Shown here: piece by piece, positions 58,410 through 62,710 of the stretch | How positions within the stretch are numbered: the stretch's first letter is position 1 | Layout of the letters: the number at the start of each line of letters is the position of its first letter | Assembly (NCBI GenBank): GCA_040743155.1 | Contig: JBFLJU010000001.1 | Location: 1,488,001-1,552,000, forward strand | Length of the DNA stretch: 64,000 bases | Direction of reading: 5' to 3' | Source of the DNA: Cycloclasticus sp. | GTDB lineage: Bacteria; Pseudomonadota; Gammaproteobacteria; Methylococcales; Cycloclasticaceae | Made by a program: the position numbers and the translations under genes | The notes under the pieces: generated by a model | What the model saw: the letters and a program-made list of their open reading frames with translations, nothing else | Database searches by the model: none | What the model was told of the DNA's origin: nothing

Positions 58410-59402
58410 CTACATCGAATTAACTTGATTTCGCCCGAAATTTTTCGAGGTATATAGTGCTTCGTCTACTCGCTTAATAAATGCTTTCAAGTCATCTTTA
58501 TCTAATAACTGCGTCACACCAAAACTTGCGGTAACAGAAAACTCTTTAATACCAGGCTGAGAACTTATTAACTCACGAAGTTTCTCAGCAAGTAAAACTG
58601 CTTTGCTCACGCTTGTATTTGGTAATAACACCACAAACTCATCCCCACCCCATCTAGCAGCAATATCCACTTCCCTAATGTTATTCAACACTAAGTCGCC
58701 AACTTTAGTTAAAACCAAATCACCTGACGCATGCCCGTAAGTATCGTTAACTGGCTTAAAATTATCCAGATCGAAAGCAATTAAGGATAACGGTTCATTA
58801 AAGCGCCTTGACCTTGCTTTTTCTTCTGTCATCTTTTTGTCGAAAAAATACCGACTTGATAACAATGTAAGTGCATCAGTATTTACCAACCTTTCGACCT
58901 CAAGCATCTTCTGCCTAAGCTCCTCATTTACTTGATTGAGCTCATCTGTCCGTACATCAATGAGCGCTTGTAGAGATAATTTTTCCAGTTTGTTTTTCTC
59001 TTCGAGTAATTTTTCAGTATTTATGTCACGGTGAGCGCCGATCATTCTAGCCACCGTATTGTCTTCATTCCATTCAACTACTAGCGCTTTATCTTCTACC
59101 CAAACGTAGTCATCGCTGGAGGTTCGACAACGGTACTGGATTTTATAAGCATCAGATTTATGGGTAATATAACGATCAAAGTGCTCCATTACACGAGCAT
59201 AATCATCTGGGTGTATGATATTCTCCCAAGTGAACACCGTGTTTGCAAAAGAATTCAGGTCATAGCCAAGCATCAAGTACCAAGCAGGGTTTCGATAAAC
59301 ATAGCCGCTATTAGCGTCCCAATCCCATATGCCATCACTGACAATCTCTAAAACAGCAGACTGAGATTCTTTCGTTAATTTTGGTAGCAAAGGTTCTTTC
59401 AT
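58410..59402 (-). CDS. PAS-GGDEF diguanylate cyclase
   Basis: The 330-residue protein has an N-terminal PAS domain with PAC (SDGIWDWDANSGYVYRNPAW, MLGYDLNSFA, IHPDDYARVMEHF), a coiled linker and a GGDEF domain. The active site RWGGDEFVVLL is intact. An inhibitory I-site, RxxD (REVD), lies five residues before it. It should make c-di-GMP and be product-inhibited. No membrane segment is present. The gene points away from the riboswitch and faces the receiver-PP2C gene, 206 bases beyond the latter's stop. Confidence 0.92.
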   Translation of the reverse strand: MKEPLLPKLTKESQSAVLEIVSDGIWDWDANSGYVYRNPAWYLMLGYDLNSFANTVFTWENIIHPDDYARVMEHFDRYITHKSDAYKIQYRCRTSSDDYVWVEDKALVVEWNEDNTVARMIGAHRDINTEKLLEEKNKLEKLSLQALIDVRTDELNQVNEELRQKMLEVERLVNTDALTLLSSRYFFDKKMTEEKARSRRFNEPLSLIAFDLDNFKPVNDTYGHASGDLVLTKVGDLVLNNIREVDIAARWGGDEFVVLLPNTSVSKAVLLAEKLRELISSQPGIKEFSVTASFGVTQLLDKDDLKAFIKRVDEALYTSKNFGRNQVNSM

Positions 59403-59897: not shown

Positions 59898-59925
59898 TTG
59901 AAATATCAAAAACTTATGTTAGTAT
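59898..59925 (+). promoter_or_regulatory. candidate sigma-70 promoter for the riboswitch leader
   Basis: TTGAAA at 59898 and TAGTAT at 59920 are separated by 16 bases. It lies about 235 bases upstream of the aptamer, in the gene-poor gap of about 900 bases between the GGDEF gene and the M11 gene. It is only a sequence match. Confidence 0.35.
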
Positions 59926-60045: not shown

Positions 60046-60168
60046 ATGCAAGTAAATAATTACCTGCTAACTGCTGCGCGCGCGCAGTATTTTTTTAACC
60101 ACAACCTTGGAGGCTGTGCCTACTCGCACACCCGTCGATTAAAAATTAGAAAGATCTCATCCCGATAA
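60046..60168 (+). CDS. possible 40-residue leader peptide overlapping the riboswitch start
   Basis: An ATG preceded by AAGGGGC (six-base spacing) opens a 40-codon frame that ends at TAA 60166-60168, inside the 5' strand of the GEMM aptamer. The product would contain TAARAQYFFNHNLGG and a basic C-terminus. A terminator-like hairpin lies within it. I know no homologue. It may be a leader peptide that couples translation to the riboswitch, or chance. Confidence 0.3.
   Translation: MQVNNYLLTAARAQYFFNHNLGGCAYSHTRRLKIRKISSR
60073..60097 (+). terminator. terminator-like hairpin upstream of the riboswitch
   Basis: CTGCGCG / CGCGCAG is a GC-only palindromic stem followed by TA and seven T. It lies about 60 bases before the aptamer. 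It may end a short upstream transcript or act as an attenuator within the leader. If it terminates fully, the aptamer must have a closer promoter. Confidence 0.5.
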
Positions 60169-60243
60169 TAGCAAACCCCGAGTAATCGAGGGACGCAAAG
60201 CCACGGACCCGCCTACAGCGGGCTGCCAGACTGCCGAAGGAGA
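60160..60243 (+). ncRNA. GEMM-I cyclic-dinucleotide riboswitch (A20-type)
   Basis: The aptamer core is present: GCAAACC at 60171, a P2 stem capped by a GUAA (GNRA) tetraloop, the invariant GGGACGCAAAGCC at 60190, a P3 stem CCCGC / GCGGG, and the 3' strand CTGCCGAAGG. Canonical c-di-GMP-I aptamers have G at position 20, two bases before the GCAAA cytosine. Here that base is A (60170) in the context AATA, as in the cGAMP-binding Geobacter aptamer GM0970. It lies 55 bases upstream of the M11 metalloprotease start. GAAAGATC at 60149 can pair with GATCTTTC at 60269, a candidate expression platform near the ribosome site. Confidence 0.85.
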
Positions 60244-60298
60244 GAAAACGACCTTCCATTAGCATGGGGATCTTTCATCAACCGAGATGAGGATATCT

Positions 60299-62710
60299 AT
60301 GCAACATATCAATTTTACACACGCTAAATTCAACAACCGTTTTTGTTTCGCCACTGAATCAAGAACTTCAGCCCAAACACAGCTAGGACAAGCGTCCAAA
60401 CGCCGCGTTAACGGCATCCTTTTTACCTTGCTTATTTTCATGCTTGGGCTTGCGTCAATGTCCAGCCCAGCACTGGCCAACAACGATAACGCACTTACTC
60501 AGGCCGAAGCACTGACCCATTCATTGGTCGGACTCAATAAGGCCTATCAACACGCGGCAGCCAATGCCCAAGCCAATGCGCTAGACGAACTACTCAGCGT
60601 CGCCGCCGAACGCCACGCTCTGCTCTCCAGCCTGATTGAGGAAGATCCCGGCGCCGTACTGCGGGTCGCTATACCCGCTCAGGTTCGTGCCGGTATGCCT
60701 GATGAAGTTTCCAGCTTTATCGAGCAACGGCTAGAACTCGAAGGCGAACTAGAAGTTTTATATGAGGACTACACAGACGGCAGCCATCGCCTGCGTCACT
60801 CCCTCAAGGCTGACGATGAACTTATCTCGCTATATTTCAAAACCAATCCAGCTGGTCTACTCAGCGGTAATTCGGTGATTGCGCACGGAATCTATCTCGC
60901 AGGTGCTGATGGCACAGACGGCTCTATAGCACTGGAATCTAGCGAAAATATTTTAATGCTAGCCGCCGGCGGCGGATCCGATGGAGGCAGTAACGGCGGC
61001 ACACCGGCACCGACGCCCAATACCCTCGGCGAACAGCACACTGTCGTTTTACTGGTTAATTTCCAGGACGACCCCAACAACATGCCGTGGACAGTGGACG
61101 AAGTACGTGACCTAGTGTTCGGCACTGTCAACGATTTCTACATCGAAAACTCCTACCAGCAAACCTCGCTCACTGGTGATGTCCATAACTGGGTTACGCT
61201 TCCCGTGGGGAGCAACACCTGTAGCACCACGACGATACAAAACGAGGCCGATACAGCAGCTAGCAACCAAGGTATAGACATTTCTGCTTATAATCGCATC
61301 GTCTACATTTATCCCCGCTACAACTGTTTTTATGCCGGCAAAGCCACCGTGGGCGGCACCCCATCACGCGCCTTCATCGCGGGATATTTAAACTTGAAAA
61401 TCATTGGCCACGAGCTAGGACACAACTTTGGCCTGATGCATTCTCACGGCATGAACTGCACCGGAACTGTGGTCGGCTCTGGATGCCCATGGCTCGATTA
61501 TGGCGACAGCTTAGACATCATGGGTAGCGTGGCTCTGCATATCAACAGCTTCCAAAAACAACTACTGGGTTGGTTGGATTACGACGTATCACCACCGATC
61601 ACAACAATTAATACAGGCGGTAGCTACCAGATCGCACCTTATACAACAGGCGGTAATGCCCCGCTTGCTCTACGGATTGCACGCGACCCCGATCCAACGA
61701 CTGGTCAGCAACGTTGGTTCTATCTTGAATACAGGCAAGCACTCGGCTTCGACAGCCCTATCGGAAGTTCATCCCAGCTTGATCAGGGTAATATACTGAA
61801 CGGCGTGGTATTCCACTTAGGCACAGAAGGTGACAGATCTAGCAGCTTCCTGCTGGATATGACCCCCGACAGCAACCCAACGGGTTCATTTGAAGATCTT
61901 TATGACCCAGCACTAACCATTGGGCAGAGCTACACCGACCCGGTAACGGGTGTTACGATAAAGACCGATTGGTCGGATGGCAGCGGCGCCACGGTGCTCG
62001 TAAACTTTGACTCAGAAAGTTGCCTACGCGCTAACCCAAGCATTGCACTATCGCCAGCCGAAGGCCCCTGGGTTGAACCAGGAATGCCCGTTACTTATAC
62101 CGTGACGGTTACCAACAACGATGGAGGTTCCTGCGCCGACGCCAGCTTCGATAGCACGGCCAGCGTACCAACCGGCTGGACAGCAAACTTTGCCGATTCC
62201 ACCTTAATTCTCGCACCTGGCGCTAGCGTTACAAGCAACCTGACTGTTACTTCATCAAACAGCGCAGCCGATGGCTTCTACAACGTTGACATCAGTACCA
62301 GCAATAGCGCCGCTAACTATAGCGATTCGGCCATTGCCACCTACGTAGTCAGTGCAGACACCGGTGGCACACCGGCCAATAACGCACCGGTGGCAGTCAA
62401 CGACAGCGCCACCCTGCTACAGGTAGAACCCGTGGTGATTAACGTGCTCAACAACGACTGGGACCCAGACAATGACAGCATCTGGATTGAAACTTTATCT
62501 CAGGGCACTAAAGGCACAGTCGCTATTAATAACGACGGCAGCCTGACCTATATTCCCGGCCGGCGCTTCAAGAACAACGACAGCTTCACGTATGCCATTA
62601 GTGACGGTATCGCAATAACAACCGCAACCGTCACCATTGCATTACAGAAGTCTTCCGATGGCGGGGGCGGCAAAGGCGGTGGTAAAGGCGGCGGCAAAGG
62701 CGGTAAGTAG
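60299..62710 (+). CDS. secreted M11 (gametolysin-like) zinc metalloprotease with NEW3 and cadherin-like domains
   Basis: The 803-residue precursor has a long N-terminal region of about 36 residues before the hydrophobic core of its signal peptide (GILFTLLIFMLGLASM) and a cleavage site after SPALA. The catalytic domain has the zinc motif H371-E-L-G-H375-NFGLM-H381 and a later DIMG met-turn, as in M11 gametolysins. A NEW3-like domain (about 580-685) and a cadherin/VCBS-like domain (about 695-790, NDWDPDNDS) follow. The tail is GGGK repeats. ATG 60299 is chosen over 60287 because GAGGA lies five bases upstream. The gene is visibly GC-richer than its neighbours and is controlled by the riboswitch. 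Confidence 0.88.
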   Translation: MQHINFTHAKFNNRFCFATESRTSAQTQLGQASKRRVNGILFTLLIFMLGLASMSSPALANNDNALTQAEALTHSLVGLNKAYQHAAANAQANALDELLSVAAERHALLSSLIEEDPGAVLRVAIPAQVRAGMPDEVSSFIEQRLELEGELEVLYEDYTDGSHRLRHSLKADDELISLYFKTNPAGLLSGNSVIAHGIYLAGADGTDGSIALESSENILMLAAGGGSDGGSNGGTPAPTPNTLGEQHTVVLLVNFQDDPNNMPWTVDEVRDLVFGTVNDFYIENSYQQTSLTGDVHNWVTLPVGSNTCSTTTIQNEADTAASNQGIDISAYNRIVYIYPRYNCFYAGKATVGGTPSRAFIAGYLNLKIIGHELGHNFGLMHSHGMNCTGTVVGSGCPWLDYGDSLDIMGSVALHINSFQKQLLGWLDYDVSPPITTINTGGSYQIAPYTTGGNAPLALRIARDPDPTTGQQRWFYLEYRQALGFDSPIGSSSQLDQGNILNGVVFHLGTEGDRSSSFLLDMTPDSNPTGSFEDLYDPALTIGQSYTDPVTGVTIKTDWSDGSGATVLVNFDSESCLRANPSIALSPAEGPWVEPGMPVTYTVTVTNNDGGSCADASFDSTASVPTGWTANFADSTLILAPGASVTSNLTVTSSNSAADGFYNVDISTSNSAANYSDSAIATYVVSADTGGTPANNAPVAVNDSATLLQVEPVVINVLNNDWDPDNDSIWIETLSQGTKGTVAINNDGSLTYIPGRRFKNNDSFTYAISDGIAITTATVTIALQKSSDGGGGKGGGKGGGKGGK

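Follow-up and report, generated by a model that had tools for sequence, protein, structure and literature searches.

A GEMM-I riboswitch with A at position 20 before a metalloprotease gene in Cycloclasticus sp.: most likely a c-di-GMP sensor with relaxed selectivity

Does an adenine at position 20 of a GEMM-I aptamer indicate a riboswitch for cGAMP? The question is raised by the leader of a metalloprotease gene in Cycloclasticus sp., which lies in a stretch of 64,000 nucleotides (contig JBFLJU010000001.1, positions 1,488,001 to 1,552,000; hereafter the window, whose numbering is used throughout). The initial annotation took this adenine to suggest cGAMP or dual specificity. We believe, with a probability of about 0.65 and judging by sequence comparison and folding, that this A20 GEMM-I riboswitch is most likely a c-di-GMP sensor of relaxed selectivity that represses the translation of the M11 metalloprotease. 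The relaxed selectivity is proposed because of the A at position 20.

The aptamer and its binding pocket

The identity of the aptamer, assigned earlier from the sequence by eye, is borne out by a cmscan search of the 64-kb window on both strands against 4227 families. Over the whole genome (2.56 Mb), no second GEMM-I match was found. The features of the aptamer are as follows.

60160-60238, + strand: GEMM-I (c-di-GMP-I) aptamer, RF01051, full length (model positions 1-87), scoring 52.2 bits where the gathering cutoff is 35, with E = 2.5e-7 on the basis of this search
60170, + strand: A, aligned with Vc2 G20 (model position 11 of the Rfam alignment)
60171-60172, + strand: lower P2 G21-C22, pairing with C46 (60196) and G45 (60195), Vc2-type (Rfam alignment)
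60234, + strand: C, aligned with Vc2 C92 (model position 83 of the Rfam alignment)

The Infernal alignment to RF01051 is free of gaps in the 5' half, which sets model position 11 (Vc2 G20) at A60170, exactly where the adenine had been placed before. G is typical, though not universal, at this position in RF01051, where A is also frequent; the window aptamer has A there, in the context A18-U19-A20-G21-C22. The equivalent of A47 is A60197, and the P1/P2/P3 three-way junction with C92 and A47 is present (P2 and P3 from the Rfam alignment, P1 from folding). The Vc2 numbering of these residues comes from placing the Vc2 sequence on the Rfam alignment. It agrees with the cGAMP aptamer in which the selectivity base A14 adjoins the first P2 pair C15-G40 (PMC6274999).

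The combination of A20 and C92, known from the cGAMP riboswitch (GEMM-Ib), is thus present in the window. A20 with C92 makes up the pocket of cGAMP aptamers (PMC6274999), and A20 is the base that marks such aptamers and is called a selectivity factor (PMC9262584). Both facts speak for a true 3',3'-cGAMP riboswitch, fed by a GGDEF protein with Asn348 and Pro304 that would act in a Hypr-like manner; we consider this quite unlikely, for reasons given in the next two sections. A selectivity factor is not a hard filter, and the G11A mutant of Cd1, equivalent to G20A, still binds c-di-GMP (PMC9262584). In view of these two points, the binding of both cGAMP and c-di-GMP by the window aptamer in vitro is plausible.

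A dual c-di-GMP/cGAMP specificity is a reading of its own. According to the account of structure 4YB1 given in PMC6274999, a Vc2-type scaffold with G20A admits cGAMP without losing its c-di-GMP pocket, and a protonated A permits c-di-GMP binding, as related in PMC9262584; the window has exactly A20 on a Vc2-type lower P2. We nonetheless regard dual specificity as unlikely, considering that duality in vitro may have no physiological meaning where the genome gives no sign of cGAMP synthesis.

Two known systems are close enough for comparison. Vibrio cholerae Vc2 (RF01051) shares with the window aptamer the fold, C92, A47, the lower P2 pairs G21-C46/C22-G45 and, as far as folding of the window leader suggests, the translational OFF architecture derived from P1 competition; the window differs in having A for G at position 20, a GUAA loop without the 11-nt tetraloop receptor and a metalloprotease target. 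The Geobacter cGAMP riboswitch (GEMM-Ib, e.g., pilM/Gs1761) is similar in A20, C92 and the A18-U19-A20 context. It differs in the lower P2, which is C21-G46/U22.G45 in Geobacter and G21-C46/C22-G45 in the window; moreover, the genome studied here has a single aptamer copy, a target gene unrelated to electron transfer and no Ser/Thr Hypr GGDEF enzyme that we could find.

The P2 loop of the window aptamer is GUAA, and its P3 is without the CUAA-type 11-nt tetraloop receptor. The missing receptor could be taken as a trace of decay, i.e., of a non-functional aptamer carried with a horizontally acquired gene. A simple motif test on 130 distinct A20 sequences gave the CTAA-type receptor in 50 of the 88 with GAAA loops and in none of the 27 with GUAA, GUGA, GCAA or GCGA loops. 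Since these other GNRA loops never occur with the receptor, its absence here is a normal variant. The pocket residues other than position 20 are all kept, and the score is well over the cutoff, which also argues against decay.

Distribution of A20, of the lower P2 pairs and of Hypr cyclases

The view that Geobacter relatives are the main known source of A20 aptamers could not be upheld. The exact A20 pattern (AGCAAACC-N4-20-GGGACGCAAAGC), scanned over genome contigs, occurs in at least 119 stretches from many phyla, other Gammaproteobacteria included. The matches listed come from Firmicutes, Chloroflexi, Omnitrophota, Gemmatimonadota, Planctomycetota, Actinobacteria, Desulfobacterota and Gammaproteobacteria, and Pseudoalteromonas and Shewanella are among them. 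All of the 13 A20 loci run through cmscan are c-di-GMP-I or c-di-GMP-I-GGC matches. Among 369 genomes sampled evenly from the class, the exact motif occurs in the genome studied here and in one other; the A20 form is therefore uncommon in the class and not unique to this genome. The ratio of A20 to G20 in viral contigs (5:8 raw) was set aside, as two of the five A20 matches (L031, L035) are without the rest of the fold.

In Shewanella fodinae, an A20 GEMM-I aptamer is found directly before motY in the flagellar cluster (L173:3152-4234), and motility, the process in which motY takes part, is a classic c-di-GMP target. Pseudoalteromonas species have an A20 copy before the gene for a CBM2/PKD secreted protein. 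The aptamers of these gammaproteobacteria (L173, L098, L115, L155, L157, L159) resemble that of the window: they have A20 on a Vc2-type lower P2, precede genes for motility or secreted proteins and occur where no Ser Hypr GGDEF was found; they differ in the GAAA loop with a CTA-type receptor and in their outputs, motY and the CBM2/PKD protein. Two further arrangements were observed: A20 and G20 GEMM-I aptamers 1.2 kb apart in a gammaproteobacterial MAG (L116:3251-4573), and a tandem pair of A20 GEMM-I copies (L198, G114:C36) in front of the gene for a secreted-type protein that matches FlgD_ig weakly.

In Hypr GGDEF enzymes, Ser or Thr replaces the canonical Asp (PMC6456294, PMC8835794, PMC9140294). 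We searched 52 A20-bearing genomes by a codon pattern for FKxxNDxxGHxxG followed by a residue other than Asp. Codons of the AG type (Ser or Arg) were found in five of the six genomes of Desulfuromonadales/Geobacteraceae (G466, G468, G469, G470, G471). The remaining 46 genomes gave no Ser or Thr at the Hypr position by this pattern, which needs the full FK..ND..GH motif and would let divergent enzymes escape; judged by eye, it would cover 27 of the 30 GGDEF domains read in the genome studied here, the Asn copy counted. An AA codon (Asn or Lys) was found at this position by the same pattern in seven of the 46, including the genome of the window.

The lower P2 may provide a second marker. In G466 and G470, A20 aptamers form a multi-copy subfamily whose lower P2 pairs are C21-G46 and U22.G45 (AATACTAAACC...GGCGGAAAGC), with 7 and 10 copies, respectively, counted over parsed loci; its exact pattern is absent from the remaining genomes of the 52, three Hypr genomes among them. 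The window copy, read from the Rfam alignment instead, has G21-C46/C22-G45, and its lack of the lower P2 of this subfamily is an argument against the cGAMP riboswitch. The marker is our own and has no published definition, although its first pair corresponds to C15-G40 of the solved cGAMP aptamer. As a mark of cGAMP aptamers, it is suggestive and unproven: the five Hypr genomes were selected for holding one A20 copy with a window-type core, three of them lack the subfamily, and some loci were left unparsed. In genomes of the same order (L009-L030), most GEMM-I aptamers have G20 with the flipped pair C21-G46.

Cyclases of the genome

If the window aptamer sensed cGAMP in the cell, an enzyme that makes it would be expected. 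A GGDEF protein had been reported near the aptamer, and it is indeed there.

58410-59402, - strand: divergent PAS-GGDEF gene (Pfam), canonical diguanylate cyclase residues, with equivalents of Asp348 and Arg304

Both selectivity positions of this protein are therefore canonical. The whole genome has 32 GGDEF matches, of which 30 domains were read and two weak ones left out. Of the 30, 26 show the canonical Asp within GHxxGD; one domain has Asn, and three are divergent or degenerate (L064 of these keeps Asp). The 30 domains include no Ser/Thr Hypr type, and neither a SMODS-type (DncV-like) CD-NTase nor a DAC cyclase was found in the genome.

The Asn domain belongs to a protein outside the window (G000:C1:1709589-1710572; locus L055:1003-1986), which has Pro at the position of the stacking Arg (304) and is possibly, from its residues, a non-canonical cyclase. 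Asn348 is kept in all eight orthologues of the genus, the copy studied here included, with Ala or Pro at position 304. Such conservation counts in favour of the cGAMP riboswitch, and so does the fact that Hypr enzymes shift towards cGAMP when the stacking Arg is lost (PMC6456294). Against it, Asn is not the residue of the known Hypr enzymes, which carry Ser or Thr (PMC9140294), and the Asn348 protein is also present in seven genomes of the genus without an A20 switch; within the searched set, where several relatives are incomplete, the genome studied here is the only one of the eight with the switch. A role of the Asn348 protein in cGAMP synthesis is unproven, considering that it carries a GGEEF motif and that the literature surveyed describes no Asn-type Hypr enzyme.

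The cGAMP reading is weakened by four facts taken together: A20 is widespread, the Hypr Ser is limited, among the 52 genomes, to Desulfuromonadales/Geobacteraceae, the P2 is of the Vc2 type, and the cyclase set of the genome is as described. Thus, one part of the original suggestion is kept, namely that some cGAMP binding beside c-di-GMP is plausible in vitro. The other part, the step from A20 to cGAMP, is not supported, given the Vc2-type lower P2 and a genome in which no Ser/Thr Hypr GGDEF, SMODS or DAC enzyme was found. We infer that the ligand is c-di-GMP and consider cGAMP unlikely as the physiological one; whatever possibility there is of physiological cGAMP sensing comes mainly from the Asn348 protein. 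A cGAMP or dual GEMM-I switch outside Geobacter relatives, combined with an undescribed, genus-conserved and promiscuous Asn-type GGDEF enzyme (Ala or Pro for the stacking Arg), would be very unlikely.

The protease gene, its origin and its control

The output gene was described earlier as encoding a secreted protease, and the zinc motif together with the Pfam match confirms it.

60287-62710, + strand: gene for a secreted M11-type zinc metalloprotease, HELGHNFGLMH, PF05548 (E 7.6e-11), PF17963 (E 1.1e-19)

In addition to M11, Pfam gives NPCBM_assoc and Big_9 domains. The start at 60299 is more likely than that at 60287. Neither the 60 relatives nor the 369 genomes of the class hold orthologues of the riboswitch and the gene; the C-terminal repeat-type domains alone match, and the peptidase part gave no match there (residues 1-683 were the query for the 369 genomes). 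The plasmid and viral collections offered no source of the gene; two Pseudoalteromonas records in them align to about 32% of the query with an identity of 30%. The gene and leader (60149-62710) have a GC content of 52-53% vs 41% in the upstream genes and 44% in the window. The riboswitch and gene were likely acquired laterally as a unit.

The single copy absent from relatives and the GC content above that of the surroundings (41-44%) also suit an aptamer that came with the gene and decayed. We find this highly improbable, as folding points to an organised expression platform, which consists of the following elements.

60149-60157, + strand: 5' strand of anti-P1 (GAAAGAUCU), overlapping the 5' strand of P1 (pairing with 60268-60276)
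60155-60164, + strand: 5' strand of P1, pairing with 60235-60245 (minimum-energy fold)
60235-60245, + strand: 3' strand of P1 (minimum-energy fold)
60262-60302, + strand: hairpin over the SD (GAGG, 60289-60292) and the AUG at 60299 (minimum-energy fold)
60268-60276, + strand: 3' strand of anti-P1, shared with the 5' arm of the hairpin that sequesters the SD (folding)

The anti-P1 helix has eight Watson-Crick pairs and one G-U; among 5000 shuffled versions of the downstream region, 145 reached eight pairs. When P1 was enforced in constrained folding, the SD and AUG were about 99% paired and about 1% unpaired; when anti-P1 was enforced at 37 C, they were 55-67% and 75-79% unpaired, respectively. 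The ensemble cost of anti-P1 relative to P1 is 1.7-1.8 kcal/mol, and a transcript ending at 60280 has anti-P1 as its minimum-energy fold. In the full leader at equilibrium, the SD is paired with or without P1, and the unconstrained fold is OFF in all cases; hence the ON state must be kinetic, and we assume that the choice is made during transcription. Since relatives have no orthologues of the riboswitch and gene, comparative covariation lends the switch itself no support.

The folding results speak for a translational OFF design, and Vc2 itself is a switch of this type (PMC9262584). From this we infer the direction of regulation. Bound ligand would stabilise P1 (60155-60164/60235-60245), which would leave the strand 60268-60276 free to join the hairpin 60262-60302, and the hairpin would bury the SD and the start codon, so that translation is OFF. 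If there is no ligand, the nascent RNA would pair 60149-60157 with 60268-60276 and break the outer P1; this pairing would release the SD and turn translation ON.

Some features of the neighbourhood may be added. The sole sigma-70-like candidate promoter found nearby on the + strand (59898-59925) lies upstream of a strong terminator-like hairpin (60072-60098, + strand; TGCTGCGCGCGCGCAGTA, then seven T), which is placed between this promoter and the aptamer. An ORF of 40 amino acids (60046-60168) has AAGGGG upstream and ends in UAA-UAG within the aptamer junction; it is probably due to chance.

An adenine at position 20 of a GEMM-I aptamer is not to be equated with cGAMP specificity: combined with a lower P2 of the Vc2 type, it occurs widely in phyla in which Hypr cyclases were not found, and the lower P2 pairs together with the co-occurrence of Hypr enzymes look like a better predictor of cGAMP aptamers. 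Should the cGAMP alternative with the Asn348 protein prove correct, cGAMP signalling would gain a new lineage and a new cyclase signature. If, as we presume, the switch senses c-di-GMP, the protease would be on at low c-di-GMP, as in dispersal.
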